DNA of 39,086 nt from an uncultured Bacteroidales bacterium (GTDB lineage: Bacteria > Bacteroidota > Bacteroidia > Bacteroidales > Bacteroidaceae). A model generated the notes under the pieces. That model was not told the DNA's origin and did not search any database. It was given only the letters and a program-made list of their open reading frames with translations. Made by a program: the position numbers and the translations under genes. Of this stretch, positions 444-38,978 are shown in pieces (the first letter of the stretch is position 1; each line of letters starts with the position of its first letter). Location: contig CACZAN010000025.1 of assembly GCA_902779165.1 (NCBI GenBank), forward strand, positions 12,885 to 51,970, written 5' to 3'.

Positions 444-509
444 AGTAAGTATAGTTACCCGCACGACAAACTATAGTTCCTTCGACGAGGAACTATACTT
501 TGTTTGACT
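444..509. repeat. 22-bp tandem array F (AACTATAGTT family)
   Basis: Three consecutive 22-bp units start at 444, 466 and 488. The central unit carries ACAAACTATAGTTCC; the third is partly inverted (GGAACTATACTTTG), so units two and three also form an inverted repeat. The same ACAAACTATAG core recurs with exactly 22-bp spacing at 38913-38978, at the other end of the window. Confidence 0.65.
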
Positions 510-556
510 GCGATGTTTAAACGTTGGGAATGCTACCTGCTGACGCAAAGACAGAT

Positions 557-644
557 ACGTATGGTCAGTTTTGCGGCTACGTATGGTCAGCTTTGCGGCT
601 ATGTCTGGCCAGTTTTGCTGCTATGCCTGGCCAGTTTTGCTGCT
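557..644. repeat. 22-bp tandem array A
   Basis: Four head-to-tail 22-bp units at 557-578, 579-600, 601-622 and 623-644. Each is a variant of a unit ending in GGTCAGTTTTGCGGCT or GGCCAGTTTTGCTGCT. Units 1 and 2 are nearly identical, as are units 3 and 4, which suggests stepwise duplication. The array is intergenic; I see no gene that uses this reading. Confidence 0.85.
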
Positions 645-721
645 ATGTAAGGCTGTGTTCTCCCCTACTTCCTGTTACAACAGAGCCTTTTGATGGAGGA
701 AAAGCTGTCGCCGACATCATC

Positions 722-848
722 AAAAGGGAGAGGTTTCGCCACGAAAAGGAGAGGTTTCGCCACGAAAGGGAGAGGTTTCGCCACGAAAGGGGGAGGTTTC
801 GCCACGAAAGGGGGAGGTTTCGCCACGAAAGGGAGAGACTACGCCATG
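722..848. repeat. 21-bp tandem array B
   Basis: Six head-to-tail units of 21 bp (the first is 22), starting at 722, 744, 765, 786, 807 and 828, with the core GGGAGAGGTTTCGCCACGAA. The last unit is the most diverged. The array ends 13 bp before the Nudix stop codon region at 862, so it lies immediately downstream of the rhaB-nudix transcription unit. Because 21 is a multiple of three, the array is open in several frames and produces a spurious RERFRHE-type repeat ORF. Confidence 0.9.
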
Positions 849-861
849 AAGAAGGGAGGGG

Positions 862-1413
862 TCACTCTACGTTTCCGAGGCCAGAGAAGAACTTGTAGAG
901 GGCAGCAAGCATCGAGGCTTGCATGAACTCGCCGTTGAGGAGCATCTCGCGGACTTTCTCCTGAGAGAAGGTGTAGACCTCGATGTCCTCCGTAGGGTCG
1001 AGATGCTGGGTGCCGGTTTTCTCTACGCCGATGGCCACATAGCTGTGGGTGATGTTATTCATGGCGCTGGCGTTGCAGGTGAACTGCATGGCCTCGTGCC
1101 ACTCGCCGCCGCTGTAGCCTGTCTCTTCGAGGAGTTCGCGCTTGGCGGCAACCAGCGGGTCTTCGCCCTCCTCCACACAGCCAGCTACGATTTCGAAGCA
1201 GGTGCGACCAAGGCCGTGGCGATACTGGCGTATGATGACCATGTCGCCTTCCTTGGTGAGGGCAACGACATGCACCCACGTGGGATACTCGAGGACGTAG
1301 TATTCCTCGTTGATGCGGCCGTCGGGCAGCTGGCAGGTGTCACGACGGGCGGTAAGCCAAGGACGGCGGAAGAGGTATTCGCTCTTCAGGGTTTTCCAGT
1401 CGAGATTCTTCAT
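862..1413 (-). CDS. Nudix hydrolase, ADP-sugar pyrophosphatase-like
   Basis: A protein of 183 residues starting at MKNLDWKTLK. The ATG overlaps the TGA of the upstream rhamnulokinase (ATGA overlap at 1410-1413), which fixes this start over longer open-frame alternatives and implies translational coupling. A canonical Nudix box is visible: G-CVEEG-E-DPLVAAK-RELLEETGY, in the middle of the protein and preceded by the EIVAGCVEEGE context typical of ADP-ribose/ADP-sugar pyrophosphatases. The family hydrolyses a nucleoside diphosphate linked to another moiety, using divalent metal bound by the REXXEE glutamates. The actual substrate cannot be read from sequence; the sugar-kinase partner makes a nucleotide-sugar or ADP-ribose substrate plausible. 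Tandem array B lies directly downstream. It is cytosolic, with no signal peptide or membrane segment. Confidence 0.85.
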   Translation of the reverse strand: MKNLDWKTLKSEYLFRRPWLTARRDTCQLPDGRINEEYYVLEYPTWVHVVALTKEGDMVIIRQYRHGLGRTCFEIVAGCVEEGEDPLVAAKRELLEETGYSGGEWHEAMQFTCNASAMNNITHSYVAIGVEKTGTQHLDPTEDIEVYTFSQEKVREMLLNGEFMQASMLAALYKFFSGLGNVE

Positions 1414-2825
1414 TGGGGGAGATAGGTTTTGAGTTCTATGCTGCGGGCGATGATTGCACGCATCTCGGCAAGGGAACCGACGAGGCCGGCAGCACGAACC
1501 TGCACAAGGGCATTGCCGAGAGCTGTACCTTCCTGAGGGCCTGCGATGACAGGCATCTGAAGGGCATCGGCGGCAAACTGCATGAGGTGCTGGTTGCGCG
1601 AGCCACCGCCAATGACATGCAGGCGCTGGATATCCACCGAAGTAAGGCGACGCAGGATATCCACGACCTCTGCATAACGGGCAGCAAGGGAGCGGAAGAT
1701 GATGCGTACGTAGTCGGCAGGCTGCTCGGGCAACGGCTGACGGGTCTCGGTGAGGTAGTCGCAGATGGCGGCAGTCATCGAGGCGGGATGCGCAAAGCGG
1801 GGATCGTCCGGCTGAATCAGACTTTGGCACGTGGACTGAAGGCAGAGGGCATTCAGGGCGTTAACATCGGAGGGAACTTCTCCAGCCTTCCATTCCTTGC
1901 GGCACTGCTCGTAGATCCATAGACCTGTAATGTTCTTGAGGAAACGGATGGTGTGGTCCAAGCCTCCTTCGTTGGTGAAGTTCTCTGCAAAGCTGTCTGC
2001 ATTGATGATGGGTGCCGGCGATTCCACTCCCAACAGAGACCAGGTGCCACAGCTGAGGTAGGCGAAGTTGGCATCCTCAGCAGGCACGGCAGCAACGGCG
2101 GAGGCGGTGTCGTGGGAGCCCACGGCCACAATGGGCACAGCGCCAAGGCCTGTGGCGGCCTGCACTTGTGAAGTGAGCGAACCCACCTGCTCTCCTGGCT
2201 GTACGAGACGACCGAACTGGTTGCGCGAGAGGCCAAGGGTTTTCAACAATGCGGAATCGAGGTCGCCGGAGCGAGGATTCAACATCTGAGAAGTGGATGC
2301 TACCGTATATTCACATACAGCCTCACCCGTGAGCATGTAGATCAGCGCGTCGGGGATAAAAAGAATCTTATCGACATGCTGGAGGGCAATACTGCCGTTG
2401 CGGCGTAGGGTATCGAGCTGGAACAGCGAATTGAAAGGCATGAGCTGAATGCCCGTGCGGTCATAGACTTCCTGCTGCGGCATGCGGTCGGCAAAGTAGC
2501 GCTCCATGGCACCATCCGTGTGAGGATCGCGATAGCAATAAGGCAGTCCGAGGAGTTGACCGTCGGCACCGAAGAAGGCGAAGTCACAACCCCAAGTGTC
2601 GATGCCAATACTCTGCAAGGTGATGCCTTCGGCTTTCACTTGCCGCAGAGCCCTCAAGACCTCGTTATAGAGGTGTGGCAGGTCCCAGAAGATATGGCCG
2701 CCAAGGGGCAGTTGAGGATTCTCAAAACGAGTGAACTCACGCATCTCTATGCGTTGTCCGTCGAAGGAGGCCAGTACTGTGCGGCCGCTGGTGGCGCCGA
2801 GATCTACGGCAAGATAGGAGGACAT
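1410..2825 (-). CDS. rhaB: Rhamnulokinase
   Basis: A FGGY-family sugar kinase of 471 residues, the usual length. It begins MSSYLAVDLGATSGR, the nucleotide-binding motif of the FGGY/actin fold. It contains IGIDTWGCDF and GSHDTASAVAAVP, both typical of L-rhamnulose kinase, and a C-terminal phosphate/adenosine segment HVIGGGSRN followed by AGPQEGTALGNAL. The enzyme phosphorylates L-rhamnulose to L-rhamnulose 1-phosphate in the cytosol. The usual partners (rhaA isomerase, rhaD aldolase, rhaT/fucP transporter, AraC-type regulator) are not next to it. Instead the gene is coupled to a Nudix hydrolase by a 4-base overlap. No clear TAnnTTTG promoter is visible in the 94-bp gap to the ABC permease upstream, so read-through from the export operon is possible. 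L-fuculose specificity is a less likely alternative. Confidence 0.88.
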   Translation of the reverse strand: MSSYLAVDLGATSGRTVLASFDGQRIEMREFTRFENPQLPLGGHIFWDLPHLYNEVLRALRQVKAEGITLQSIGIDTWGCDFAFFGADGQLLGLPYCYRDPHTDGAMERYFADRMPQQEVYDRTGIQLMPFNSLFQLDTLRRNGSIALQHVDKILFIPDALIYMLTGEAVCEYTVASTSQMLNPRSGDLDSALLKTLGLSRNQFGRLVQPGEQVGSLTSQVQAATGLGAVPIVAVGSHDTASAVAAVPAEDANFAYLSCGTWSLLGVESPAPIINADSFAENFTNEGGLDHTIRFLKNITGLWIYEQCRKEWKAGEVPSDVNALNALCLQSTCQSLIQPDDPRFAHPASMTAAICDYLTETRQPLPEQPADYVRIIFRSLAARYAEVVDILRRLTSVDIQRLHVIGGGSRNQHLMQFAADALQMPVIAGPQEGTALGNALVQVRAAGLVGSLAEMRAIIARSIELKTYLPQ

Positions 2826-2919
2826 GGGAAGGTGAACGTTGAAGAATTGAAAAATGCTATTGATAATCTATTGTCCGTTGAATGTCAGTGTTTTTTGTTT
2901 GTCTATCAATCATCAATTA

Positions 2920-4104
2920 TTAATTGAGAAGCGAGCGTCCCACAGACTTTCGGATTTCGAACATATAAAGGAAACAGGTAAGGAGAAAATAGATGCCAGC
3001 GAGAATCCAGAGCATCTTTATCTCCTGATAACAATCGCCCAATGAGGCCCCCATACCTTGAATACGGACGTAAGCGTTTGAACCCCAAGTAGAGGGGAAT
3101 ACTGTGCCTACAGCTTTCCAAAGAGGCGGTATAGAGGCTCCGGGCCAACTGACTCCCGTGAGGAACAGTAGAGGAATGGACATGAAAACGAAAAGCAAGA
3201 TGCAGTCCTCCCTGCGGAAGATGAAATGAGACCAGAACATGGCCATGAAAGTGCAGGCCGCCAAGTATGGCACAAGCAGTCCAAAAATCTCGCTCAGATG
3301 ACCCAGCTGCGGAAGACCGAACCAGCGCGTCACGCAGAGGGTCATATAGAGCCCCATAAGCAGGAATATGAGGAAATGGACAAGTCCCTTTCCAAGGACT
3401 ATGGCCAAGGTGTTCTTGTAGTGCTTGGTGGGCGGGATGACGAGACCACGGAAACGTTCGCGCGAGCGACCCATAGACATTCCTACACCCAAGCACAGCG
3501 CCTGCTGCAGTATCAGCATCAGCACTGGAGGTATCAGGAAAGCTGCAAATCCACCTGCAGAATTGTACATCTTCACCTCCTCGAAGCGGATAGGCCAGCG
3601 CGCGACATCCTCTTCACGAGCCGTAGTGTTCGTCTGGCGTTCCTTCACCTTGATGTTGCGATTCATCTCCTGTGCCACATTGATGACTGCAAGATACTCT
3701 ACCTTATAATAAAGCATAGACGTGAGGTCGCTGTAGAGACCGATAACGGTCTGCTCGCCTCGCCACAAATGCAAGTCAAACTCACGTGGAATGCGCATGA
3801 TACCAAAAACGTCTCGGCGGCGCATGAGTTCTTGTGCCTCATCCATACTGACGCAGCTGGCAGCAATCTTCACCTCCGGGGTGGCATCGACACGCCTTAT
3901 AAACTCACGGCTACGGTCGCTCATGCAGTCATCAACGACACATATCGGCAACTGGCGCTGAGTCTCGGTATTATAAATCATCGCGTATAGCAGCGGATAA
4001 GCCAACGGAAGGAGGATGACGAAGATCAGTATGCCCTCGTCCTTCACAATCTCGCAGAGCTCGTCCCACCATACGTGGAGGATAGGAAACATTGGCTTTT
4101 TCAT
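2920..4104 (-). CDS. ABC-2 type transporter permease (second of pair)
   Basis: A membrane protein of 394 residues. It has one N-terminal membrane segment (about residues 22-42), a periplasmic region of roughly 130 residues (VVDDCMSDRSREF onward), then about five clustered membrane segments in the C-terminal half, and ends in a short cytosolic tail. This is the ABC-2 permease topology of the YhhJ/YbhR type, which in other bacteria exports drugs or envelope components together with an HlyD adaptor and TolC. Its ATG overlaps the stop of the preceding permease by 4 bases (4101-4104). It is the last gene of the TolC-HlyD-permease-permease operon. No ATP-binding cassette gene accompanies it here, so the energising subunit must be encoded elsewhere or be fused in relatives; substrate unknown. 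Confidence 0.85.
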   Translation of the reverse strand: MKKPMFPILHVWWDELCEIVKDEGILIFVILLPLAYPLLYAMIYNTETQRQLPICVVDDCMSDRSREFIRRVDATPEVKIAASCVSMDEAQELMRRRDVFGIMRIPREFDLHLWRGEQTVIGLYSDLTSMLYYKVEYLAVINVAQEMNRNIKVKERQTNTTAREEDVARWPIRFEEVKMYNSAGGFAAFLIPPVLMLILQQALCLGVGMSMGRSRERFRGLVIPPTKHYKNTLAIVLGKGLVHFLIFLLMGLYMTLCVTRWFGLPQLGHLSEIFGLLVPYLAACTFMAMFWSHFIFRREDCILLFVFMSIPLLFLTGVSWPGASIPPLWKAVGTVFPSTWGSNAYVRIQGMGASLGDCYQEIKMLWILAGIYFLLTCFLYMFEIRKSVGRSLLN

Positions 4105-5276: not shown

Positions 5277-5325
5277 TGAAGAATGTTTAAAGTTTTATGC
5301 TTGAAGTTCCAAGGGGGACTTAAGC

Positions 5326-6312
5326 TTATCTAATTATTACAGTCATTCCTGCCAGCACATCCTTGACATCAGCCTGATTCACGGGATAGGCGGTGACCTC
5401 AAAGGTCTTGAGGTCATACTGATCCAAAGCTTTAGTAGCCTTCCAGGTGGCATAGCTGCCCATCACATTGATGGTGGCCACTTTCACCTTCATTTCGCGG
5501 TCGACCGCCGGAACGTAGATGTTGAGTTCCGTATCGAGTGTCATTCCAGGAAGATAGTCCTCACGCACATTGAAGATGAAGCGGACGTCATCGGTGCGAG
5601 CAATATTCATAATCGGTGCACCTTGTCCTACGAGTTCTCCCACCTTGGGGAAGACCTCAGTAACAGTACCGTCTGCCGTAGCCAACAGCACGGTTTCCTG
5701 CTGGTAGCCCCGGACCTCGGTGACAGCACCCTGAGCGCGGGCCACCTGTGCGGCAGCAGCGGCCTTATCCTCCCGACGCGCGCCCTCACGTGCCATTTCA
5801 TACTGGCTGTGAGCCGCCTTCTCTGTGGCTTGCATGGCTTTCAGCTGCGCCTCGGCCTCATCACGTTTCTGGGCGGGGATGACCCCCTCATCAAAGAGCC
5901 TGCTGACACGGCTATAGGTCTTTTCTGCCACTTCGAGACCAGCCTGAGCCTTCTGCCAAAGTTCGTAGGCTCCCTGAATTTCCTGCTGACGAGCACCATT
6001 CTGTGCTTTCTGTTCGATGGCCCTGGCGGCAGCCTCGGCAGCCTCGGCCTGCATCATCTTTGCCTCCACTTCGGGCGAGTCCATGATGACGAGCGTGTCG
6101 CCGGCCTTCACCTTATCGCCCGACTTCACACGCAGTTCCTTCACTCGGCTGGGCACCTTGCTCGAAATGCGATAGTCGCTGGTTTCGGCCTGCCCCTGCA
6201 GCACCTCCTGCGGCTTGGGTAGGAAGATGCCAACAAGAATTACTACTGCCATCACAGCCACGAGCACGAGGGCAATGATGAGCAGGTTGTTTATTTTACT
6301 TCTTTTTGCCAT
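5326..6312 (-). CDS. HlyD/EmrA-family membrane fusion protein
   Basis: A periplasmic adaptor of 328 residues. The N-terminus has one membrane anchor (about residues 9-30, NLLIIALVLVAVMAVVILVG). A half biotinyl-lipoyl domain follows (SSKVPSRVKELRVKSGDKV, then GDTLVIMDSPEVEAKM). An Ala/Glu-rich coiled-coil hairpin spans about residues 75-190, then comes the second lipoyl half (LLATADGTVTEVFPKVGELV) and a C-terminal beta-barrel. It bridges the inner-membrane permeases and the TolC-like channel. It starts 19 bp after the TolC-like gene and is followed by two ABC-2 permeases. The start at MAKRSKINN puts positive residues before the anchor, as expected. Confidence 0.9.
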   Translation of the reverse strand: MAKRSKINNLLIIALVLVAVMAVVILVGIFLPKPQEVLQGQAETSDYRISSKVPSRVKELRVKSGDKVKAGDTLVIMDSPEVEAKMMQAEAAEAAARAIEQKAQNGARQQEIQGAYELWQKAQAGLEVAEKTYSRVSRLFDEGVIPAQKRDEAEAQLKAMQATEKAAHSQYEMAREGARREDKAAAAAQVARAQGAVTEVRGYQQETVLLATADGTVTEVFPKVGELVGQGAPIMNIARTDDVRFIFNVREDYLPGMTLDTELNIYVPAVDREMKVKVATINVMGSYATWKATKALDQYDLKTFEVTAYPVNQADVKDVLAGMTVIIR

Positions 6313-6331
6313 AGTATTTTGTTTTTATTCA

Positions 6332-7960
6332 TTATCTTAAAGTTCCCAGCGCACGCAACATATAAAGGTGGGCAAGGCGGGTATCGATTTCGGCTTCCAC
6401 AAGAGTGGAGTGTGCCGAGAGCCAGGCTGTCTGTGCCTGCAGCACATTACTAACCGGGATGACACCTTCCTTCATGCCTAGATTGGCAATGCGCAAGTTC
6501 TCGTCGGCCTGTTCCTGTGAGCGTTTGGCAGTCACCAAACGTTCCTTAGCCTCCTGCAGTTTCTGCTGATTCTGGTTCACCTGCAAGGTTATCTTCTCCC
6601 GCACTTCATCCACACGGGTCTCGGCAATAGCAGCTTCGGCTTTCGCCTGACGCACCTTGTAGATGCGGTCGCCCCAAGTGAGGATGGGCACTTTCAGCAT
6701 CACGCCTGCAGTCCACATACCTCCGAACTTCTTCTCAAAGCCATTGTATAAATTAGGATTCGAGACAAGGTATCCAGCGGTCAAAGCCAGGTTAGGCAGA
6801 TATTCCGAACGAGCGACTTTCACCTGTTCGCGCTTCACCTGTGCTGCTACATTCAGAGCCATGATTTCTGCACGATTGCCCATAGCAGTCTCCACGGCTC
6901 CTGTCAAATCTGCATTAGGATCTACCCAAGTCGTGATGTCGTCTACTGTCAGGTCGCGGGACTCATCGGTGAGTGTAAATTCTGCATCGAGCGGCAATCC
7001 GCAAATCTGAGCCAACGCCATTCGTGAGAGTGAAAGTCCATTGTTCACCTGAATCATGGCGACCTCTGCTTCGTTCAATTTCACCTTCACGCTGAGTCCG
7101 TCGGCCTTCGTTGCCATACCCTCAGCAATAATCTTTTCGACATCGGAATCCAGTTTTTTCACGGTCTCGAGGAAACTCTCTGCCAGCTGCTTCTTACTCT
7201 GGAGGGCGATGATACGCCAATAAGCCTCATCAACACTGACGAGCAGATCCTGTTCCTCCATCGTATACTGCAAGCCTGCTGCTTCCTCAGCCAGACGCGT
7301 GATGCGGTCGTAGGCACGAATCTTACCACCCATGTACAAAGGCTGGGTGAGCATCACGGCAGCACCCGTCATGTTACGGGTATCTGTACGGAATGCATCA
7401 ACGATGTTCTGTCCTGCGGCATCAACCATGGATGCCATATTTGTCAGCATACCATTGAAAACTGTGGAAGCCTGCTGCATAAGGGGAGCAGCCAGCTGTT
7501 GTGCCATCGTGGGGTTCGACAACAGTTGCATCAATAAAGGACTTTGGGAAAGCACTGCAGCCACCTGCGGATTCTGCATCATGGCCGCAAATTCAGGACT
7601 CTGCATAAGTGAGGAGAGTCCCTGCTGGAACGACGCCATGCTCTGCTGTGCTCCTTGTCCGATGGCACCCGCCATCTTGGTCCCCATTGTAGAAAGGGAA
7701 TTTTTCTGTTCATCGTTGAGCAGAGAAATTTCCCTCGATGTCCGCTGATAGGAACCTACTGCCGAAATCCTCGGGAAGTAGTTCGTCAGCGCAGACTTAC
7801 GTTGCCAGTGGGCCGCCTCTTGCTTGAGGGAACTCATCTGCAACGCCTTGTTGTTCCGAATGGCCAGTGCACGACAACTGTCAAGACTCAAGGGCTGTCC
7901 GGCAACAGTCATCACGCCCGTAACGGCGAGCACCACAACCATAAAAAATCGTCTTTTCAT
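6332..7960 (-). CDS. TolC-family outer membrane efflux protein with Met/Gln-rich insertion
   Basis: A protein of 542 residues, longer than typical TolC-family members (about 430-480). The N-terminal signal peptide is MKRRFFMVVVLAVTGVMTVAGQ. The mature protein begins PLSLDSCRALAIRNNKALQ, the first OEP helix. Paired OEP coiled-coil domains follow, including VSVDEAYWRIIALQSKKQLAES and KVARSEYLPNLALTAGY. Between about residues 85 and 185 there is an unusual helical stretch rich in Met, Gln and Ala (GQGAQQSMASFQQGLSS; MMQNPQVAAVLSQSP) that accounts for the extra length. It is the first gene of the export operon, preceded by a possible promoter at 7996-8028. It is expected to form the trimeric outer-membrane duct. 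Confidence 0.9.
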   Translation of the reverse strand: MKRRFFMVVVLAVTGVMTVAGQPLSLDSCRALAIRNNKALQMSSLKQEAAHWQRKSALTNYFPRISAVGSYQRTSREISLLNDEQKNSLSTMGTKMAGAIGQGAQQSMASFQQGLSSLMQSPEFAAMMQNPQVAAVLSQSPLLMQLLSNPTMAQQLAAPLMQQASTVFNGMLTNMASMVDAAGQNIVDAFRTDTRNMTGAAVMLTQPLYMGGKIRAYDRITRLAEEAAGLQYTMEEQDLLVSVDEAYWRIIALQSKKQLAESFLETVKKLDSDVEKIIAEGMATKADGLSVKVKLNEAEVAMIQVNNGLSLSRMALAQICGLPLDAEFTLTDESRDLTVDDITTWVDPNADLTGAVETAMGNRAEIMALNVAAQVKREQVKVARSEYLPNLALTAGYLVSNPNLYNGFEKKFGGMWTAGVMLKVPILTWGDRIYKVRQAKAEAAIAETRVDEVREKITLQVNQNQQKLQEAKERLVTAKRSQEQADENLRIANLGMKEGVIPVSNVLQAQTAWLSAHSTLVEAEIDTRLAHLYMLRALGTLR

Positions 7961-7995
7961 ATACCTTATTTTATATATGCTTTAGTTTGCGGGTG

Positions 7996-8028
7996 CAAAG
8001 GTCGGGGTTTTTCGCCATACAAGCAAGA
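7996..8028 (-). promoter_or_regulatory. Possible promoter of the tolC-hlyD-permease operon
   Basis: On the minus strand GACCTTTG (7996-8003) matches the TAnnTTTG -7 box at seven of eight positions counting the free positions, and TCTTG (8024-8028) lies 20 nt upstream as a -33 element. The expected start leaves a leader of about 30-40 nt before the ATG at 7960. The mismatch at the first T lowers confidence. Confidence 0.45.
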
Positions 8029-8103
8029 GATATCGAACATTTTTTTTGGTCAAAAGGGCTTTTTATTTCGCAAAAACGCGATATTTGCCCTTTTATCCAA
8101 GTT

Positions 8104-9610: not shown

Positions 9611-9639
9611 TATTATTAGAGTTTTTGCTTTTTCGGGTG

Positions 9640-9647: not shown

Positions 9648-9689
9648 CAACTTTTTCTGCAAACTTTATGCTATTTAGTCGGAAAAGTG

Positions 9690-12381: not shown

Positions 12382-12477
12382 AAATGCACGAATATAACAT
12401 TATTTAACGAATACACCTCCTGTGCTTCGTCTCCTTACATAGCATGACAAACTCCATTCAGATAGGGCGTGACGCCG

Positions 12478-12587
12478 AGTTCCATCTATGGTATTCCACA
12501 GTTCCACCTATGGAACTCTCGAGTTCCACTGCTGGAATTCAGAAGTTCCACTGCTGGAATTCAGGAGTTCCACCTTTGGAATTACGT
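12478..12587. repeat. 22-bp tandem array C downstream of cimA
   Basis: Five exact-length 22-bp units start at 12478, 12500, 12522, 12544 and 12566, each beginning AGTTCCA. Most units are internally palindromic (GTTCCACCTATGGAAC; the middle units pair TTCCA with TGGAA). The array ends 37 bp after the cimA stop codon, which is on the minus strand at 12625. The rest of the 12244-12624 gap holds the padR promoter and operator; I see no gene in it. Confidence 0.9.
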
Positions 12588-12624: not shown

Positions 12625-14154
12625 CTATTGCTTCACGTAAAGAGGCTCTATGATATTCAGCAGTTTTATGGTGGCTTTGATGGCAGCCTCGGTCTGGTCG
12701 GCATCGAGAGCGTGGGTGCGATAGGTCTTTTCCTCGAAGACCCACTCGATGGTGGTCTGTACGAGGGCGTCAGTTCGTCCGCCTGGCGGGATGGTGACGG
12801 TGTAGTTCGAGAGCCAAGGGAAGTGGCGGTCGAGACGGTCGCGATAGATATGGCGCACGGCACGCACAAAGGCATCGTACTGACCGTCGCCTTGGGCACT
12901 CTCCTCGTAGATCTCTTCGTTGACTTGCAGCCGCACCTGGGCCATTGGACGCAGGCCATAAGCCGTAGATACCATGTAAGATAACAACTGTACACATTCA
13001 TCGTCCTCGCTATGTTTCAGCACATCACGGATGATAAACGGGAGATCTTCCTGGGTAACGAGTTCCTTTTTGTCGCCCAGTTCGATGATGCGGTCGGTAA
13101 CTTTCTTCATGTCCTCTTCGCTGAGGTCCAGCCCCAGTTCTTCGAGATTCATGCGCAAGCTGGCTTTGCCGCTGCTCTTGCCGAGGGCATACTCACGACG
13201 GCGTCCGAAACGTTCTGGCTTCAAGGCGTTCTGATAGAGCCCCTGCTTGCTGTCGCCATCAGCATGTACTCCTGCCACCTGGGTGAAGACTGCCGAACCC
13301 GTGATGGGTTTGTTCGGTGGGATAGCGATGCCACTATAGCTCTCCACCATGTGAGCCACCTTGTTAAGTTCCACTTCATTGATGTTCGTATGAGCATTGA
13401 AGTGGTCTTTCAGAATAGCTTGAACGCTCGCCAAAGGGGCATTGCCAGCACGTTCTCCGAGCCCATTGATGCAGGTATGCAATCCACGCGCTCCACTGAG
13501 GACTGCAGCAAGAACATTAGACACGGCAAGGTCGTAGTCGTTATGGGCGTGGAAGTCGAAGTGTACTTTCGGATATCGCCTAACCATCTTGCGAACAAAG
13601 GAAAGGACTTCCAGAGGATTAAGGATGCCGAGAGTGTCGGGGAGCATCACGCGCGCGACAGGAAGATCAACGAGAGAATCCATGAGTCGGAAGACATAGT
13701 GGTCTTCTTTCATTCCATTACTCCAGTCTTCAAGATAGATATTAACGGCTATTTCGCGTTGGGCAGCAAGCAGAACATTATGTCGTATATCTGCGATGTG
13801 CTCTTCCAGCGTCTTTCCCAGCTGTCCCTCGCAATGACGACGAGAACCCTTACATAATAAATTAATGGTACGCGCGCCCGCGCGTTGTATCCAATCGAGG
13901 CTTTTGCCGTCGTCCACGAATCCGAGGACTTCCACCCTGTCGAGCAAGTTCTTCTGTGCCGCCCAACGTGTGATACGTTGCACAGCTTCTAATTCTCCTT
14001 CACTGACACGTGCCGATGCCACCTCCACGCGGTCCACATGCAGATCCTCGAGCAGCGCACGGCAAATCATCAACTTCTCATGAGGCATAAAGCTGACGCC
14101 ACTTGTCTGTTCACCATCGCGCAGCGTGGTGTCCATGATCTCAATGCTTCTCAT
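12625..14154 (-). CDS. cimA: (R)-citramalate synthase, CimA-type
   Basis: A DRE-TIM metallolyase of 509 residues with a C-terminal LeuA-type regulatory domain. It starts [22 protein letters not shown]. Motifs seen are TLRDGEQ, YLEDWSNG, the metal-binding FHAHNDYDLAVSN, and NGLGERAGN. Compared from memory with Leptospira CimA, the pyruvate-pocket residues map with a constant offset: Asp13, Leu77, Leu100 and Tyr140 here for Asp17, Leu81, Leu104 and Tyr144 there. This supports condensation of acetyl-CoA with pyruvate to citramalate, the first step of threonine-independent isoleucine synthesis, rather than isopropylmalate synthesis. The regulatory domain (IPPGGRTDALVQT) suggests isoleucine feedback control. 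Its start overlaps the leuD end by 14 bp. General annotation would call it 2-isopropylmalate synthase. Confidence 0.8.
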   Translation of the reverse strand: MRSIEIMDTTLRDGEQTSGVSFMPHEKLMICRALLEDLHVDRVEVASARVSEGELEAVQRITRWAAQKNLLDRVEVLGFVDDGKSLDWIQRAGARTINLLCKGSRRHCEGQLGKTLEEHIADIRHNVLLAAQREIAVNIYLEDWSNGMKEDHYVFRLMDSLVDLPVARVMLPDTLGILNPLEVLSFVRKMVRRYPKVHFDFHAHNDYDLAVSNVLAAVLSGARGLHTCINGLGERAGNAPLASVQAILKDHFNAHTNINEVELNKVAHMVESYSGIAIPPNKPITGSAVFTQVAGVHADGDSKQGLYQNALKPERFGRRREYALGKSSGKASLRMNLEELGLDLSEEDMKKVTDRIIELGDKKELVTQEDLPFIIRDVLKHSEDDECVQLLSYMVSTAYGLRPMAQVRLQVNEEIYEESAQGDGQYDAFVRAVRHIYRDRLDRHFPWLSNYTVTIPPGGRTDALVQTTIEWVFEEKTYRTHALDADQTEAAIKATIKLLNIIEPLYVKQ

Positions 14155-19662: not shown

Positions 19663-20253
19663 ATGCCCCAAAGATACGTTGTAGTATCCTACAAGATGCT
19701 GACTCACTCCCCTGTCAGCCACAAGTTGCTCTACGAAACTCCAGCCGAACAACCCGTAGCCTTCGTGACAGGAATGGGCTTGATGATCGATGCTTTCGAG
19801 CAACATCTGACAGCCCTCAATCCCGGCGATGACTTTGACTTTGTCCTCAAGGCAGCCGACGCTTTCGGAGAGCGCGACGAAGAGTTGGTGCGCGCCTTAC
19901 CTCGCAAGGTCTTTGAAATCAGAGGTAAATTCATGGAAGAAGAGGTTTATCCGGGTGCCGAAGTGCCCCTTATGGACAACGAGGGTAACCACTTCATGGG
20001 CACCATCGTGAAGGTTACAGATACGGAAGTCACCGTGGACCTGAACAGCCCGCTGGCTGGTCGCGACCTACAGTTCACCGGTCGTTTACTGGAGAACCGC
20101 GAGGCCTCGCTACAAGAAATCGAACAAACCGCCAAAATCCTCTCTGGCGAGGGAGGCTGCGGAGGATGTGGAGGATGCGGAGGATGTGGAAGCGAAGAAG
20201 GCGGATGCGGCGGATGCGGCAACGAAGGAGGTTGCGGCGGTTGCAACGCCTAA
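19663..20253 (+). CDS. slyD: FKBP-type peptidyl-prolyl isomerase, SlyD family, with Cys-Gly metal-binding tail
   Basis: A protein of 196 residues. The FKBP part (HKLLYETPAEQPVAFVTGMGLMIDAFEQHLTALNPGD) encloses the IF chaperone flap (about 70-125: AADAFGERDEELVRALPRKVF to VTDTEVTVDLNSPLAGRDLQF). This is the SlyD architecture: a cytosolic folding helper and prolyl isomerase. The last 35 residues are almost only Gly and Cys, with eight Cys in GGCGGCG-type repeats interrupted by SEEGG and NEGG. In Escherichia coli the SlyD tail is His/Cys-rich and delivers nickel to hydrogenase; here His is absent, so soft-metal binding by thiols is inferred. A terminator-like palindrome follows, then aroC. Confidence 0.93.
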   Translation: MPQRYVVVSYKMLTHSPVSHKLLYETPAEQPVAFVTGMGLMIDAFEQHLTALNPGDDFDFVLKAADAFGERDEELVRALPRKVFEIRGKFMEEEVYPGAEVPLMDNEGNHFMGTIVKVTDTEVTVDLNSPLAGRDLQFTGRLLENREASLQEIEQTAKILSGEGGCGGCGGCGGCGSEEGGCGGCGNEGGCGGCNA

Positions 20254-20271: not shown

Positions 20272-20314
20272 CCCCTACTCCCCTCCCCGAGGAGGGGTCG
20301 GGGATGGGCTTTTT
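20272..20314 (+). terminator. Terminator-like palindromic element after slyD
   Basis: CCCCTCC (20280-20286) pairs with GGAGGGG (20291-20297) and outer CCCC (20272-20275) with GGGG (20300-20303), followed by GGGCTTTTT. It has the shape of an intrinsic terminator and resembles the G/C palindrome family found in hisS and aroC. Confidence 0.6.
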
Positions 20315-20343
20315 CAACGTTTCAACATTTCAACCTTTCAACC

Positions 20344-21435
20344 TTGAACACCTTCGGCACTCTTTTCCGTCTCACCTCTTTCGGCGAAAGTCACGGCGCA
20401 GCCATCGGCGGCGTCATCGACGGCTGTCCTGCTGGTCTGGAACTGGACCTCGACTTCATTCAGTCTGAACTCGATCGCCGTCGTCCTGGTCAGAGCCGTC
20501 TCACCACAGCCCGCAAGGAAGGCGACCGCGTGGAACTTCTCTCCGGAGTGATGCCTGCTCCCGAGGGCTCTTCTAAGGGACTGATCACCACCGGCACTCC
20601 CATCGGCTTCATCGTCCGCAACGAAAACCAACATTCCTCAGACTACGACGACCTGCGCGATATCTTCCGCCCCTCCCACGCCGACTACACCTATTATATG
20701 AAATATGGTGTGCGCGATCATCGCGGCGGCGGGCGTTCCTCTGCTCGCGAGACCATCAGCCGCGTCGTGGCAGGAGCCATCGCCAAGCAAGTTTTAAGCA
20801 AGCTCGGCATGGAGGTGAAAGCGTGGACCCAACAAGTAGGCGACATCGCCTGCGACCCCGACTGGACCCGCCTCGACCTCAGCCTCATCGAAACCAACGA
20901 TGTGCGTTGTCCCGACCCGGGCACCGCTCAACAAATGGAAGACCTCATCCTGCAGGTAAAAGGCGAGGGCGACACCATTGGGGGCATCATCGCTGGTGTC
21001 ATCACCGGCTGTCCTGTGGGACTCGGCGAACCGGTCTTCGGCAAGCTCCACGCCCAACTCGGAGCTGCCATGCTCTCTATCAATGCCGTCAAAGGCTTTG
21101 AGTACGGCGAAGGCTTTGCAGGAGTGAGTCAGCGCGGCAGCGAGCAGAACGACGCGTTTCCCCTCACCACCAACCATTCCGGCGGCATCCAAGGAGGTAT
21201 CAGCAATGGTCAGCCCATTCCCTTCCGTGTAGCCTTCAAGCCCGTTGCCACCCTGCTGCGTCCCCAGCAGACCATTGATATTCACGGCAACCCCGTCACC
21301 ATCAACCCTCGTGGTCGCCACGACCCCTGTGTTCTCCCCCGCGCCGTGCCTATCGTAGAAGCCATGGCCGCTATGACCATTCTCGATGCTTGGCTTGTGA
21401 ATCAAAAAAAGGCCCTCCCCTCACCCTCCCTGTAA
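20344..21435 (+). CDS. aroC: Chorismate synthase
   Basis: A protein of 363 residues starting at a TTG codon: the family N-terminus is [27 protein letters not shown] and no ATG is available. The signatures [43 protein letters not shown] and [10 protein letters not shown] are present. It converts EPSP to chorismate using reduced FMN, the last shared step of aromatic amino acid synthesis. The last residues (KKALPSPSL) and the TAA stop come from a CCCTCCCT/AGGGAGGG palindrome, so the normal C-terminus appears replaced by repeat sequence. Upstream lie CAAC-TTTC repeats rather than a Shine-Dalgarno site. Confidence 0.95.
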
Positions 21436-24136: not shown

Positions 24137-24201
24137 GAGACATATATACGTGAGGGCGAATACATATATACGTGAGGGCCGAGACATATATATGTAAAGA
24201 C
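24137..24201. repeat. 21-22 bp tandem array D1
   Basis: Three units (24137-24157, 24158-24179, 24180-24201) share ACATATATACGTGAGGG. The third is diverged and contains the palindrome ACATATATATGT. The array begins 25 bp after the esterase stop codon. Confidence 0.8.
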
Positions 24202-24209
24202 GGATACGG

Positions 24210-24341
24210 CCTTTCGCGGAGGACGTGACGGATGATCGTGGAGGACGTGACGGCCTTTCGCAGAGGACGTGACGGATGATCGTGGAAGACGTGACGGCTT
24301 ATCGCGGAGGACGTGAGGGATGATCGCGGAGGACGTGAGGG
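24210..24341. repeat. 22-bp tandem array D2
   Basis: Six exact 22-bp units start at 24210, 24232, 24254, 24276, 24298 and 24320. They alternate between a CCTTTCG-type and an ATGATCG-type 5' part, and all share GGAGGACGTGACGG with minor changes, so the higher-order repeat is 44 bp. The array lies between the convergent esterase and CotH genes. With D1 and the hairpin at 24378-24407 it fills the 24113-24448 gap; no gene is seen. Confidence 0.9.
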
Positions 24342-24377
24342 ATGATGGAGTTTCCGGTTACAAGGCTATAAACGAAT

Positions 24378-24410: not shown

Positions 24411-24451
24411 TTTGTGATGAATCGGATTTTGTTTGTGATGAATCGGATTTA
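24411..24451. repeat. 21-bp direct repeat at the CotH stop codon
   Basis: TTTGTGATGAATCGGATTT occurs twice, at 24411 and 24432, with a period of 21 bp. The second copy runs into the CotH TAA codon (24449-24451). Confidence 0.75.
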
Positions 24452-31738: not shown

Positions 31739-31891
31739 AGTATTTGTCTTATACCTTATATTCAATATAAAAATGAGCCGTTGGGTGCTGTTTTTTTAGT
31801 CGTTAGAGGACGTTTTTCAGCTTTTTGCTACACAAACATAGGTATTTTATTTCACTTTCGATACTTTTTTCTTATTTTTTTGCTTCTTTTC

Positions 31892-31922
31892 TTGTCCATT
31901 GGCGGGAAAATATCTATTTTTG
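31892..31922 (+). promoter_or_regulatory. Promoter of resB-ccsA
   Basis: TATTTTTG (31915-31922) matches the -7 box and TTG (31892-31894) lies 20 nt upstream. The leader to the GTG start is about 125 nt and contains an inverted repeat (ATTCGGAT 31930-31937, ATCCGAAT 31987-31994). Confidence 0.65.
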
Positions 31923-32053
31923 CACAGAGATTCGGATAAATCTATGATTCTGTGTCCCAACCTTCGTACTTCCGACATTATAAATCATCCGAATACTCTA
32001 AACTATTAACATTAAACTTTAAACTAAAAACTTTAAACTAAAAATAACTCACC

Positions 32054-33142: not shown

Positions 33143-33239
33143 GTCTTATTTCGAGATTTCGAGTTTTTTCCTTTTCGACATTTCGATATTTCGATATTTC
33201 GACATTCCAAATAATAATTTCAACATTTCAACTTCCAAT

Positions 33240-34010: not shown

Positions 34011-34070
34011 ATCTACCAATTGGTTGAATTAATTTGTTATTTAGACATTTGTCTAATCAGTTGGAATAGA

Positions 34071-34291
34071 AAGCCCCAGCGGGGCTTAATAGAGGTAGCC
34101 AGCCATTTCAATGGCTGGTAAGATATCAGCAATAAATATGCGTGCCTTTAGGTACGCAACATCAAATCCCTATCGCGTACCTACGGCACGCAATCTTTTT
34201 ACGTCTTCTTTACCAGCCAATGAATTGGCTGGCCGCTCGGCGCTTGCGACGCTTGACACTTCAAGAACCTTTATCAGATGCCTACGGCATC
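34071..34291. repeat. Palindromic (REP-like) repeat cluster 2
   Basis: The same modules as cluster 1, largely in opposite orientation: AAGCCCC-AGC-GGGGCTT (34071-34087), CCAGCCATT-TC-AATGGCTGG (about 34099-34118), GCGTGCC-TTTA-GGTACGC (34140-34157), GCGTACC-TAC-GGCACGC (34175-34191), CCAGCCAAT-GA-ATTGGCTGG (34213-34232) and GATGCC-TAC-GGCATC (34277-34291). A separate hairpin TTAGACA/TGTCTAA is at 34041-34056. The 34011-34427 gap holds these plus the gdhA terminator; no gene is seen. Confidence 0.85.
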
Positions 34292-34341
34292 AATCGTGAG
34301 AACATTACATTATTTCATCCAACAGGTTAAATCTTCCTCGT

Positions 34342-34387
34342 TAAAAAGAAATGCCCCGCTCGTCCTTGGTTGCGACGTAGCGGGGGC
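34342..34387 (-). terminator. Intrinsic terminator of gdhA
   Basis: On the minus strand GCCCCCGCT (34379-34387) pairs with AGCGGGGC (34353-34360) and is followed by ATTTCTTTTT. It lies about 40 bp after the gdhA stop. Confidence 0.8.
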
Positions 34388-34427
34388 TATTGGTTGATGG
34401 GGTTGCCTCGGAGCAGACAACGGGCAT

Positions 34428-35765: not shown

Positions 35766-35818
35766 CGTTCTTCAAAAGTTTATAGGGTTCAAAGCGTTGT
35801 TTTCTTCGTTTGACGCTG

Positions 35819-35851
35819 CAAATATAGTCTTTAATTACATACGAACCAAAA
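35819..35851 (-). promoter_or_regulatory. Promoter of gdhA
   Basis: On the minus strand TATATTTG (35819-35826) is a perfect -7 box and TTTTG (35847-35851) is 20 nt upstream. The leader is about 45 nt. Confidence 0.75.
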
Positions 35852-35941
35852 CTTTTGGGCATTTTTTTTGCAGACTTCGGGCGATTCGGGCTGCCCTTAT
35901 GGTGCTTTTTTCGAAAAAAAGTGCATCAAATGACCCGAAAG

Positions 35942-35973
35942 TTTGGAGAATTGGAAAACAAACGCTACTTTTG
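35942..35973 (+). promoter_or_regulatory. Promoter of the dipeptidyl peptidase gene
   Basis: TTTG (35942-35945) and TACTTTTG (35966-35973) are separated by 20 nt, a textbook -33/-7 pair. The leader to the ATG at 36008 is about 28 nt. This supports the start at 36008 and excludes the longer open frame from 35855. Confidence 0.78.
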
Positions 35974-36007
35974 TGGCAGAAAACGCATATTAAAGACATT
36001 TTTCACT

Positions 36008-38236
36008 ATGAAAAAAATTATCCTTTCCATCCTCGCAACAATGCTGTTTTTCGCCCCTGTCGTGGCCGAAAACCTACGTTTGGAAGACCTCACACGCGGC
36101 GTCTACTCCTCGCGCGGCATCTATGGGGTGCACCCCCTGAACGACGGCGAACGCTACTCCCAGATTTCCGCCGACGGCCGGCAGATCATTGCCCGCAGCT
36201 TCCGCACCGGCGAACAGACCGACGTGCTCTTCGATGTGGCCAACACCAAGGGCGACCAACGCCTCGACCATTTCAGCGGCTACATCATGAGCCCCGACGA
36301 GCAGACCATCCTCATCCAGACACAGCGCCAGAGCATCTATCGCCACTCCTTCACCGCCGTGTACTATATATATAATGTACGCAACCGCACGCTCGCACGC
36401 CTGAGCGACGGCGGCCCCCAGGAACAGCCCGCCTTCTCGCGCGACGGGACGATGATAGCCTTCGTGCGCGAGGGCAACCTCTTCCTCGTAAAACTGCTGT
36501 TCAACAACAGCGAGAGCCAGGTGACCAAGGACGGCGAGTTCAACAAGATCATCAACGGCAAGCCCGACTGGGTCAATGAAGAAGAGTTCTCCTTCGCACG
36601 CGCTTTTGACTTCAACGCCGATGGAACCATGCTCGCCTGGATACGCTACGACGAGAGCGCCGTGAAGCAGTACTCCTTCCCACTCTATCGCGGCTCACAC
36701 CCAGACCGCGACGAGTTCGCCACCTACCCCGGAGCCTACACCTATAAATACCCCATGGCCGGAGAGCAGAACGCCACCGTCACCGTCCACAGCTTCGACA
36801 TCAAGAGCCACCGCATCCAGCAGATGAAACTGCCCCTGGACAAGGACGGCTACATTCCCCGCATCCAGTTCACCGACGACCCCGAGAAACTGCTGGTGCT
36901 CACGCAAAACCGCCATCAGGACCGCCTCGACATCTACATCGCCAATCCGCGCTCCACAGAATGCAAGCTCATCGTGCGCGACCAGATCGACAAGTACATC
37001 ACCGAGGAACCCTACAAATCGCTGCAGCTCTTCCCCGGAGGATTCGTACTCATGAGCGAGCGCAGCGGATGGAACCACGCCTACCTCTATGACTTCAACG
37101 GCACCATGAAGCGGCAGCTCACCAGCGGGCAGTTCGTCGTCAAGGACTTCTACGGCTACAACCCGCAGACACAGGAGTGCTACTATGCCGCCAATGAGGA
37201 AGGCACTCAGTATCAGGCCGTCTACCGCGCCGATGCCAAGGGCCGTGTGACCAAGCTCAGCCAGCAGCGAGGCACCAATGGCGCCACCTTCAGCAAGACC
37301 TACAAATACTACATGAACGTCTACTCCAACGTCACCACCCCTCCCGTGACCACCCTCAACGCCGTGGGAGGCAAGGAGCCGCTGAAGACCCTGGAGGACA
37401 ACGCCGCTTTAAACCAGAAACTCGAGACCTTAAACTTATCCAAGCCCGAGTTCTTCACCTTCCGCACCAGCGAAGGCGTGGAGCTCAACGGCTACATGGT
37501 GAAGCCCGCCGACTTCTCGGCACAGAAGCGCTATCCCGTGGTGATGTTCCAGTACAGCGGCCCCGGCTCGCAACAAGTCCTCGACTCCTGGAGCGCAGGC
37601 AATATGGGAGGCTGCCTCTATGAACACTACCTCGCACAGCAAGGCTTCATCTGCGTCTGCGTCGACGGCCGCGGCACGGGTGGCCGGGGTGCCGCCTTCG
37701 AGAAACAGACCTACCAGAACCTCGGGCTCCTCGAAGCCCGCGACCAGGTCGAGACCGCACTCTACCTCGGCACCCTGCCCTACGTCGACAAGGAACATAT
37801 CGGCATCTGGGGATGGAGCTACGGCGGATTCATGACCCTCATGGCAATGACCGAGGGCCGTCCTGCCTTCGCCGCAGGAGTCTCCGTAGCACCCGTCACC
37901 AACTACCGCTTCTACGACACCGTCTACACCGAACGCTTCATGCGCACCCCACAGGAGAACCCCACAGGCTACGACCGCAACCCCATGACCCGTGCCTCAC
38001 AGCTCCACGGAGCCCTGCTCCTCTGCCACGGATCGGCCGACGACAACGTCCATTTCCGCAACACCGCCGAACTGACCGAGGCCCTCGTGCAGGCCGACAA
38101 GCCCTTCATGCAGCTCGTCTACACCAACCGCAACCACGGCATCTACGGCGGCAACACCCGCCTCCACCTCTTCCGCAGCATCACCCGCTGGTTTGAGGAG
38201 CACCTGAAGAACGGTAGCCAGCAAGTGATGCCATAG
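36008..38236 (+). CDS. Dipeptidyl peptidase IV (S9B family)
   Basis: A protein of 742 residues with signal peptide MKKIILSILATMLFFAPVVA. The N-terminal eight-bladed propeller contains the Glu pair that binds the substrate amino terminus (KPDWVNEEEFSFARAF). The C-terminal alpha/beta hydrolase has GWSYGG with the nucleophile Ser at about residue 604, GSADDNVHF with Asp about 678, and NHGIYGG with His about 710. It removes X-Pro or X-Ala dipeptides from peptides in the periplasm, feeding amino-acid fermentation; the neighbour gdhA fits this. The last residues (NGSQQVMP) and the TAG stop come from a repeat unit (GGTAGCCAGCAAGTGATGCC), repeated 36 bp further on, so the end appears altered by repeat insertion. 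Confidence 0.94.
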   Translation: MKKIILSILATMLFFAPVVAENLRLEDLTRGVYSSRGIYGVHPLNDGERYSQISADGRQIIARSFRTGEQTDVLFDVANTKGDQRLDHFSGYIMSPDEQTILIQTQRQSIYRHSFTAVYYIYNVRNRTLARLSDGGPQEQPAFSRDGTMIAFVREGNLFLVKLLFNNSESQVTKDGEFNKIINGKPDWVNEEEFSFARAFDFNADGTMLAWIRYDESAVKQYSFPLYRGSHPDRDEFATYPGAYTYKYPMAGEQNATVTVHSFDIKSHRIQQMKLPLDKDGYIPRIQFTDDPEKLLVLTQNRHQDRLDIYIANPRSTECKLIVRDQIDKYITEEPYKSLQLFPGGFVLMSERSGWNHAYLYDFNGTMKRQLTSGQFVVKDFYGYNPQTQECYYAANEEGTQYQAVYRADAKGRVTKLSQQRGTNGATFSKTYKYYMNVYSNVTTPPVTTLNAVGGKEPLKTLEDNAALNQKLETLNLSKPEFFTFRTSEGVELNGYMVKPADFSAQKRYPVVMFQYSGPGSQQVLDSWSAGNMGGCLYEHYLAQQGFICVCVDGRGTGGRGAAFEKQTYQNLGLLEARDQVETALYLGTLPYVDKEHIGIWGWSYGGFMTLMAMTEGRPAFAAGVSVAPVTNYRFYDTVYTERFMRTPQENPTGYDRNPMTRASQLHGALLLCHGSADDNVHFRNTAELTEALVQADKPFMQLVYTNRNHGIYGGNTRLHLFRSITRWFEEHLKNGSQQVMP

Positions 38237-38580
38237 GCATCTGACAATGGTAGCCAGCAAGTGATGCAGTAGGCATCTGACGATGGTTCTTCAGGTATGA
38301 AGCGACCAAGGTCGAGCGGCCAGCCATTTCAATGGCTGGTAATGAGGATATTGACGGATAGCGTGCCGTAGGTACGCGACAGGAATTTGATGTCGCGTAT
38401 CTAAAGGCACGCTTTTTCCTGGCTGCTTTATACCAGCCGTTCTTCAAGCGTGAAGCGTCGCAGAGCGCCGAGCGGAAACGGCTGGCCGCTCGGCCCAAAG
38501 GGACGCTTGACACTTCAAGCGCTCGACCTTGGTCGCTTCATACCTGAAGAACCATTGTCACGCCCCGCTGGGGCTTCGCA
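38213..38580. repeat. Palindromic (REP-like) repeat cluster 3 with 36-bp terminal inverted repeats
   Basis: It begins with a 36-bp direct repeat (38213 and 38249, GGTAGCCAGCAAGTGATGC). It then has perfect 36-bp inverted arms, 38283-38318 and 38520-38555 (core CAGGTATGAAGCGACCAAGG). Between them are the cluster 1 modules in the same order: CCAGCCATT hairpin, GCGTGCC...GGCACGC, CCAGCCGTT...AACGGCTGG. It ends with GCCCC-GCT-GGGGC (about 38562-38574). In cluster 1 the arms are only ACAATGGTA/TACCATTGT, so this copy has gained matched extensions at both ends. Confidence 0.88.
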
Positions 38581-38700
38581 TTACAGCTGGTTGGCATACA
38601 TGCGAAACTTGAGGAAGTACCATTTCTCCTGCTCATCATCCCATACGGTGCGCACCTTGCGCTCTTCAAACGAAATAGAGGCAATAATGGGTGTGTGCAT
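38581..38700 (-). pseudogene. Remnant of a Bro-N (BRO family) antirepressor-like gene
   Basis: A 39-codon open frame beginning MHTPIIASISFEERKVRTVW and continuing DDEQEKWYF. This matches the start of Bro-N domain proteins (KIRTVWDEEQEKWYFSVVDV type). After WYF the reading changes to LKFRMYANQL and stops. That tail lies in sequence (CAAGTTTCGCATGTATGCC on the minus strand) that is also found next to the GCCCCGCTGGGGC hairpin at about 380-445, so the repeat cluster seems to have cut the gene. Full Bro-N proteins are DNA-binding phage or mobile-element regulators; this fragment is almost certainly not functional. Confidence 0.6.
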
Positions 38701-38741
38701 TACGCCGCTAACCCTGAAAAAAGACAATGACACATTAAGAA

Positions 38742-38890
38742 CTGTTGCACTTGTTGCAGTGTTGCAGTTCCAAAATAGATTCTACGAAAACCGATATTTA
38801 ACTCTATATTTATATATATATAAATATAGAAATATTTTTTGGGAATGGAAATACCCTTAAGAGAACTGCAACACTGCAACACTGCAACAG
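38742..38890. repeat. Compound inverted repeat with central AT palindrome
   Basis: The left arm (38742-38770) and right arm (38863-38890) consist of tandem TGTTGCAG / CTGCAACA units and are complementary apart from one small bulge. Between them lies a perfect 26-bp AT-only-core palindrome (38804-38829, CTATATTT... ...AAATATAG). It precedes the HU-like gene by about 135 bp and includes no gene. Confidence 0.88.
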
Positions 38891-38912
38891 CGAGTGCAGA
38901 GCCTCGGCGAAA

Positions 38913-38978
38913 ACAAACTATAGTCTCTGCGACGACAAACTATAGTTACTCGTGCAACAAACTATAGTTCCCGCGCCC
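38913..38978. repeat. 22-bp tandem array E upstream of the HU-like gene
   Basis: Three units start at 38913, 38935 and 38957, exactly 22 bp apart, each beginning ACAAACTATAGT and then diverging. The same core occurs in array F (444-509). It lies 46 bp before the HU-like start codon. Together with the compound inverted repeat it occupies most of 38701-39024. Confidence 0.85.

Follow-up and report, generated by a model that had tools for sequence, protein, structure and literature searches.

Intergenic tandem arrays with a 22-bp period in an uncultured Bacteroidales bacterium: possible rows of phased protein-binding sites

Arrays of the window and their neighbouring genes

The DNA analysed here (the window in the following) is a stretch of 39,086 nucleotides from an uncultured Bacteroidales bacterium (GenBank assembly GCA_902779165.1, contig CACZAN010000025.1, positions 12,885 to 51,970), in which short tandem arrays with units of 21 or 22 bp (Table 1) lie beside genes of ordinary kinds: Nudix, carbohydrate kinase, HMGL-like/LeuA-dimer, CstA, GDSL esterase, CotH, GH43, glutamate dehydrogenase and DPP IV. 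We discuss these arrays, together with their counterparts in the rest of the genome and in related species, as possible rows of binding sites placed two helical turns apart.

Table 1. Tandem arrays of the window (TRF, Tandem Repeats Finder; families as defined in the text)
Feature	Position	Strand	Details
Family A array	447..500	.	cores AAGTATAGTT (447), AACTATAGTT (469), AACTATACTT (491); spacing exactly 22 bp
22-bp array	559..653	.	TRF 4.3 copies; unit GTATGGCCAGTTTTGCGGCTAT, a singleton among the clustered own arrays
21-bp array	723..859 (TRF 723-837)	.	5.5 copies; 3' of the Nudix gene (stop 862)
Family D array	12476..12583	.	TRF 22 bp, 4.9 copies; TTCCA-N4-TGGAA cores at 12502, 12524, 12546, 12568
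Family B array	24138..24195 (TRF 24138-24192)	.	TRF 22 bp, 2.5 copies; ACATATATACGT at 24140 and 24162, ACATATATATGT at 24184
C-type array	24206..24346	.	TRF 22/44, 6.0 copies; six 22-bp units with GGAGGACGTGACGG
Two-copy 21-bp repeat	24411..24450	.	TRF 1.9 copies; end of the CotH reading frame
Family A array	38907..38969	.	TRF 22 bp, 2.9 copies; cores at 38916 (AACTATAGTC), 38938, 38960

A first-pass annotation of the sequence had listed eight such stretches with a common period. Seven of them were found by TRF, and the one at 444-509, which falls under the TRF score, is borne out by its cores lying 22 bp apart, so that the arrays and their common period are real, and are so genome-wide. Their units had been described as almost unrelated, which does not hold: the arrays listed at 444 and 38913 belong to one family (19 spaced pairs in the genome), the one at 12478 to a family with 81, and those at 24137 and 24210 stand in one register by eye, the C array keeping the columns of the B array before it. 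Near-copies of the A array at 38907 are present elsewhere in the genome. Only for the units at 559, 723 and 24411 was no family found here; the 723 unit holds the dyad TTTCG-CCA-CGAAA (p=0.086 against shuffles), and the repeat at 24411 may be unrelated to the other arrays. Nor do most arrays lie 15-40 bp downstream of a stop codon, as had been stated: three of the eight follow a gene end (862, 12625 or 24112) at no more than about 42 bp, one overlaps a gene end and the rest are farther away. The D array is situated 3' of the minus-strand gene at 12625-14154, whose product has HMGL-like and LeuA-dimer domains, and the B array sits between the convergent GDSL-esterase and CotH genes.

The period in the own genome and its relatives

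The window's own genome comprises 3.59 Mb in 75 contigs, of which 1,206,898 bases were sampled (the window and 60 further stretches, 14 of them picked for a match to family A and 16 more located on those contigs). The best named matches of its glutamate dehydrogenase gene, with 96 and 95% protein identity, come from MAGs labelled uncultured Prevotellaceae and uncultured Bacteroidales. Genes were called by a simple codon model and arrays with TRF. In the main period count, restricted to intergenic arrays with a period of at least 10 and at least 2.5 copies and thereby excluding shorter arrays of 7-9 bp, 44 of 71 arrays have period 22, two have 21 and one has 23 (1.21 Mb). The intergenic total, taken at a TRF score of at least 50, is 205 arrays, with 49 at 22 bp, seven at 21, seven at 20 and three at 23. 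With the restrictions of the main count, the subset of 27 stretches from other contigs (540 kb) gave period 22 in 10 of 21 intergenic arrays and period 21 in none. The comparison set has one genome per species; in the same-genus genome G016 (556,918 bases sampled), again under these restrictions, 18 of 30 intergenic arrays have period 22, and 80 loci of other Bacteroidales (1.33 Mb) yielded 21 intergenic arrays at period 22 and six at 21. The period histogram over the intergenic DNA of the own and related genomes proposed in the first-pass annotation thus has a sharp peak, at 22 bp; of the annotated period of 21-22 bp the 22 stands, and the 21 is rare in the own genome (2 vs 44) and occurs elsewhere as the lesser value (6 vs 21). 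For all periods together, 431 kb of the own genome contained 103 arrays versus two in one order-1 Markov simulation, both of which happened to have period 22.

The 22-bp peak was not seen in small samples beyond these loci: ten more distant Bacteroidota (400 kb) had one array of 22 and one of 21 bp among 11 intergenic arrays, 13 genomes of other Bacteroidales families (256 kb) had none of 21-22 bp among 12 arrays, and 50 kb of E. coli had one of this size, of period 21. As a separate observation, arrays of 7-9 bp outnumber those of 22 bp (95 of the 205 own intergenic arrays; in the window, for example, 20312-20345, 31995-32039 and 33148-33206), and 7 bp is the commonest period in the 80 loci of other Bacteroidales.

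A constant period over unlike sequences and in several species, as well as the existence of two-copy arrays, would suit a mutational ruler, that is, a replication or repair process duplicating 21-22 bp and leaving arrays as a functionless by-product. We regard this as improbable. In the own sample, with the simple gene caller, period-22 arrays are few within genes (2 vs 49 intergenic), although selection against frameshifts would also have this effect; moreover, such a ruler sets the period at birth and would neither keep a core while linkers change nor hold the length of the linkers, and it is not expected to keep unlike cores in register across degenerate units, as described below for loci L176 and L193.

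Cores, linkers, register and placement

When the 44 unit consensus sequences of the own genome were clustered by best circular identity, groups of 12, 11, 9 and 7 members and five singletons were obtained. The four main groups are B (ACGTATATACGT), A (AACTATAGTT), D (TTCCA-N4-TGGAA, often flanked by GAG..CTC) and C (GACGT-type, some units being GACGT(G/C)ACGTC). Throughout the own genome, pairs of cores 22 bp apart number 19 for A, on 15 contigs, 55 for the B core GTATATAC and 81 for D, the latter two spread over many contigs. Plasmid iterons form an array beside the replication initiator at one origin, and this dispersal over many contigs sets plasmid-type iterons aside. In the own sample, the same core recurs 22 or 44 bp away for 40 of 45 A sites, 37 of 38 D, 30 of 47 B and 4 of 8 C sites. 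Among 61 genomes of the genus, D pairs occur in four (57 without) and B pairs in eight (53 without); family A pairs were found in none of 40 relatives, and the arrays of G016 carry other motifs. In the own genome the main families have palindromic cores, and there 17 of 56 units of period 20-23 have a dyad at p<0.05, many of them from the same families, but the palindrome is no general rule. Separately, D and B array pairs on contig C266 of G054, another genome of the genus, are identical, on the opposite strand, to those of the own genome at G000:C3:54905-55025, by transfer or by contamination of the bin.

Spacing was measured without fixing the gap, over periods of 15-45 for D and 12-42 for B, and compared with a search fixed at 22 bp. 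In four genomes, 141 of 143 pairs of D cores have a distance of exactly 22 bp (own 81/82, G054 54/55, G056 4/4, G074 2/2; none in G003 and G058), the odd pair of G054 lying at 44 with a damaged middle unit. For B cores the distance is exactly 22 in 91 of 93 pairs over the five genomes covered (G003 12/12, G058 64/65, G056 11/12, G054 2/2, G064 2/2); the G054 totals include contig C266 (two B and two D pairs), without which the B count of G054 falls to zero and its D count to 52 of 53. The 36 exact A cores in 807 kb have 17 neighbour distances below 120 bp, all equal to 22. Because the column profile of B was built with an ACGT core required, its core conservation is not independent, and the free-gap searches are the better evidence.

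The linkers between the cores vary. Those of A, collected at fixed length so that the absence of other lengths rests on the free-distance counts, differ on average by 4.7 of 12 bases, and distinct B linkers among those listed (31 own, 37 in G058, 12 in G003, 9 in G056) differ by 5.3-5.8 of 14 inside each genome. At least 33 substitutions are required to connect 17 A linkers and 34 separate adjacent D linkers, 67 in total, and no linker indel was found in A and D of the own sample, where the free-distance spacing is 22 in 22/22 and 27/27 cases, respectively. Other dispersed repeats of the own genome have 111 gap openings per 1331 mismatches (99 alignments), from which about 5.6 indels would be expected (P(0)=0.004), with the reservation that these reference repeats are themselves composite and palindromic, which may inflate their gap count. 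Core and centre-to-centre distance are kept within arrays, across the arrays of the own genome and between some species of the genus, and the linkers vary.

Unlike motifs also share a register, since mixed arrays written in lines of 22 keep their columns when the motif changes. At L183 (14901-15033) the order is D D D B B B; at L176 three B units, degenerate units and four D units follow each other, and at L193 one B, degenerate units and three D; L021 and L116 pass from C to B in one register. Twelve neighbouring unlike pairs within 160 bp were measured: B-D centre distances are 22, 110, 110 and 45, and the B-C offset is 15.5 mod 22 in 3/3, up to strand. A common 22-bp register holds for B, C and D but not for A. 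In a related species, L028 (9810-10020) has a lattice of about nine 22-bp units adjoining gdhA with one motif in both orientations, TGCCTTGA and its reverse complement TCAAGGCA standing by eye in the same columns, and L200 of G016 has a similar look in other motifs, again by eye.

As to placement, 46 own arrays of 21-22 bp have both neighbours known; 22 lie in co-oriented, 21 in convergent and three in divergent gaps, where gap length would predict 60% co-oriented, 18% convergent and 22% divergent (four, seven and none by gap type in the 540-kb subset). The median distance to the nearest stop codon is 121 bp in the own genome (43 arrays) and 116 bp in G016 (23), and only 10 of 43 and 5 of 23 arrays, respectively, lie within 40 bp, so that the stop-codon rule of the first-pass annotation is rejected. 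In co-oriented gaps, the array is nearer to the stop of the upstream gene in 18 of 22 own cases and 13 of 21 in G016, as would suit a role at the RNA level, with transcribed arrays folding into successive hairpins at the ends of transcripts and serving stability, termination or small RNAs. The D unit could form a hairpin of 8-9 bp, and small RNAs are considered for the Bacillus repeats in PMC8161180. We nevertheless give such a role little credence, as AACTATAGTT and GTATATAC appear to be without a loop for a useful hairpin, few arrays lie as near to a stop as 40 bp, and the exact spacing of centres would receive no reason.

The arrays seem to be copied as short blocks: of eight A elements chosen for alignment, seven have the array and its degenerate edge units in common and differ in most flanks, and in G054 exactly three exact cores are present at 22 of 28 listed D places. 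Both observations would also be expected of repeats resembling repetitive extragenic palindromic (REP) elements or miniature inverted-repeat transposable elements (MITEs), in which an enzyme copies arrays of few units in trans and each family, like the genus, owes its 22-bp period to its founder. In the same direction point the turnover of array positions, the presence in array clusters of a dispersed palindromic element, and the partial relation of the B linkers of G003 and G058 to the own ones. Such an origin is possible, if doubtful: it leaves unexplained why families with unlike cores in several species share a period, why B, C and D stand in a common register and why linkers lack indels. 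Beyond the array, the single alignment of the eight A elements revealed no common ends, apart from a piece of the 3' flank in three of them, target duplications not having been searched, and no A, B or D core was found in the loci of about 3 kb around three Y1_Tnp places of the own genome (two over the cut-off), one of which has other 21- and 22-bp arrays nearby. A Y1 transposase as mover is hence unsupported.

The palindromic element, of about 160 bp and with GACGCAAAAACACTCCGAACACTCC, adjoins A or C arrays at L021 (about 6256-6400) and L127 (about 5655-5835), and also at L023, L024 and L116. A pairs occur in two viral contigs, in neither of which TRF detected a 22-bp array; D pairs occur in no viral contig.

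Interpretation and comparison with known repeats

Duplication explains the period within one array, and descent explains it within one family; neither explains that unlike families agree on 22 bp, that linkers change without indels and that unlike cores share a register. These three observations favour a requirement for sites two helical turns apart, which explains the pattern, and as its cause we infer a protein. The arrays would then be rows of short binding sites, phased for dimeric DNA-binding proteins at a distance of two turns (22 bp), a reading that we adopt tentatively as a good possibility. The implied helical repeat of about 11 bp is close to values reported from repression experiments in vivo. 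Each core would be bound by a sequence-specific, probably dimeric protein, in keeping with the dyad symmetry of the best-studied families, and neighbouring sites would be needed on the same face of the helix; adjacent dimers might touch, giving cooperative, filament-like binding, and at gene ends the complex could mark a boundary, block transcription or organise the nucleoid. A joint change of protein and sites would account for the different cores of different species, and short arrays would spread to new places by copying. A phased protein-binding array, or selection for two helical turns, was among the roles suggested in the first-pass annotation and fits best, although as a cause the protein is conjectural; the mechanism copying a set length, suggested beside it, explains less.

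An extended form of this reading, which we consider unlikely, is a chromatin-like lattice: a nucleoprotein filament of fixed two-turn pitch between genes, whose related subunits would have different specificities, making unlike palindromes interchangeable in the 22-bp register, with subunit and site paired in a species-specific manner. Very improbable, in our view, are phased intrinsic bends, in which TpA-rich cores every two turns would bend the DNA and selection would act on this curvature instead of on a specific protein. The two-turn length and the TpA steps in A and B cores agree with bending, but the D core and the 723 unit are generally without TpA at the dyad centre, and cores kept exactly from one species to another show more specificity than bending would call for.

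Several observations weigh against phased binding sites. No binding protein is known, the gene content not having been searched for one, and for a single array tandem duplication is enough to make the period constant. Universal dyad symmetry is rejected, since p<0.05 was reached by only 4 of 25 units from other Bacteroidales versus 8 of 60 random intergenic 22-mers. A common register of A with B was not found, their offsets being scattered (20, 16 and 6, and 19 mod 22 in the order B-A); one D-A pair lies at 19, and the five pairs with A have no common offset. Small shifts of spacing do occur, namely a B pair at 21 in G056, another at 23 in G058 and the B-D distance of 45, and with a loose five-base B core the neighbour distance is 22 in 53 of 127 cases; the next peak, at 14, is at least in part an effect of the two ACGT halves within a single palindrome. 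Own B linkers are nearer to those of G058 and G003 (4.5 and 4.6 of 14) than to shuffled ones (7.4, G058 shuffled), the linkers of these two genomes being close to each other (2.0); only for G056 is the value near the shuffled one (6.3 vs 7.6 of 14). Descent within the genus therefore explains part of the shared spacing, which weakens phased binding sites and strengthens the REP- or MITE-like origin. The convergent excess (P=1.5e-5; divergent deficit, P=0.005) has probabilities that are too small, as several arrays share one gap, and is confined to the own genome: in G016, 21 arrays are co-oriented, two convergent and two divergent (2/25 convergent). Finally, 3' of the HMGL-like gene, a 22-bp array was present in only one of the 29 best-matching same-genus loci (61 genomes searched), namely L171, where it has another unit, so that a conserved array position is rejected; at gdhA, in four named relatives, there was too little synteny to compare array position.

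The opinion in the first-pass annotation that no named family fits is half right. Subirana and Messeguer (PMC8161180, where a survey of 1241 genomes by the same authors is cited) describe bacterial tandem repeats of constant size and variable sequence, of 20-23 nt and in Bacillus 20-21 nt, which form species-specific families shared by close species, contain a short kept sequence and have no known function; a protein polymerising on DNA at a fixed repeat size is already suggested there. As far as that account goes, the arrays resemble this class in the dominance of one size, in several families of that size (four main groups in the own genome, others in G016), in being non-coding and in the short kept sequence, here AACTATAGTT, GTATATAC or TTCCA-N4-TGGAA. 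They differ from the class as described there in the exact 22 bp, the palindromic main cores and the common register of unlike cores; the change of linkers and their lack of indels are measured here, and many arrays are below the four-unit minimum of that search, with 14 of 46 own period-22 arrays reaching at least 4.0 TRF copies. The stem "palindrom" is absent from the main text of PMC8161180, whose text, as consulted, names Bacillus, Cyanobacteria and Actinobacteria and does not contain "bacteroid". The constant-size class itself is already known; the exact 22 bp, the palindromic cores and the shared register were not found described in this literature, as far as its consulted text extends.

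Within the Bacteroidales, BrickBuilt of Porphyromonas gingivalis (PMC4596501), a MITE with a 23-nt minisatellite and 19 copies in one strain, is similarly intergenic, with head-to-tail units of about two helical turns, but according to the portion of that report used here it is a single family with a leader and a tail bearing terminal inverted repeats. The period of 22 bp and the eight aligned A elements, which share no ends outside the array apart from the 3' flank of three, do not agree with a MITE of this type. In the material consulted on Prevotella and Bacteroides no such arrays were recognised beyond BrickBuilt, papers on repeats of P. gingivalis and P. intermedia (PMC5771137, PMC4755523) lying outside the comparison.

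A further likeness is to the REP elements of enterobacteria and the bacterial interspersed mosaic elements (BIMEs) built from them, which are palindromic, dispersed and intergenic and occur in small groups; their units are longer and are not known to be set at a fixed distance of 22 bp. With no A, B or D core at the three Y1_Tnp places, a REP/BIME system with its REP-associated tyrosine transposase (RAYT) is not supported.

Constant-size repeats have so far been called enigmatic, size being kept and sequence not. In the present arrays the core and the distance between core centres are kept and the linker varies, unlike cores standing in a common register, and the question why there is one size becomes testable through the core-binding factor and a change of spacing. 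A filament-forming protein, if real, would give a major group of gut bacteria a sequence-specific nucleoid or boundary element of a new kind.

Three further repeats of the window stand apart from the arrays. A dispersed composite repeat (with pieces such as CCAGCCATTTCAATGGCTGG) occupies positions 1-420, 34060-34330 and 38206-38620, and three queries taken from it gave 113 BLAST matches, self-matches included, in 807 kb of the own genome. Two 8-bp arrays at 38743-38768 (TGTTGCAG) and 38865-38889 (ACTGCAAC) are mutual reverse complements around an AT-rich stretch and possibly form a long hairpin. Lastly, an imperfect repeat of 9/18/30 bp (GGAGGATGC) at 20152-20231 spans the end of an FKBP-like gene.

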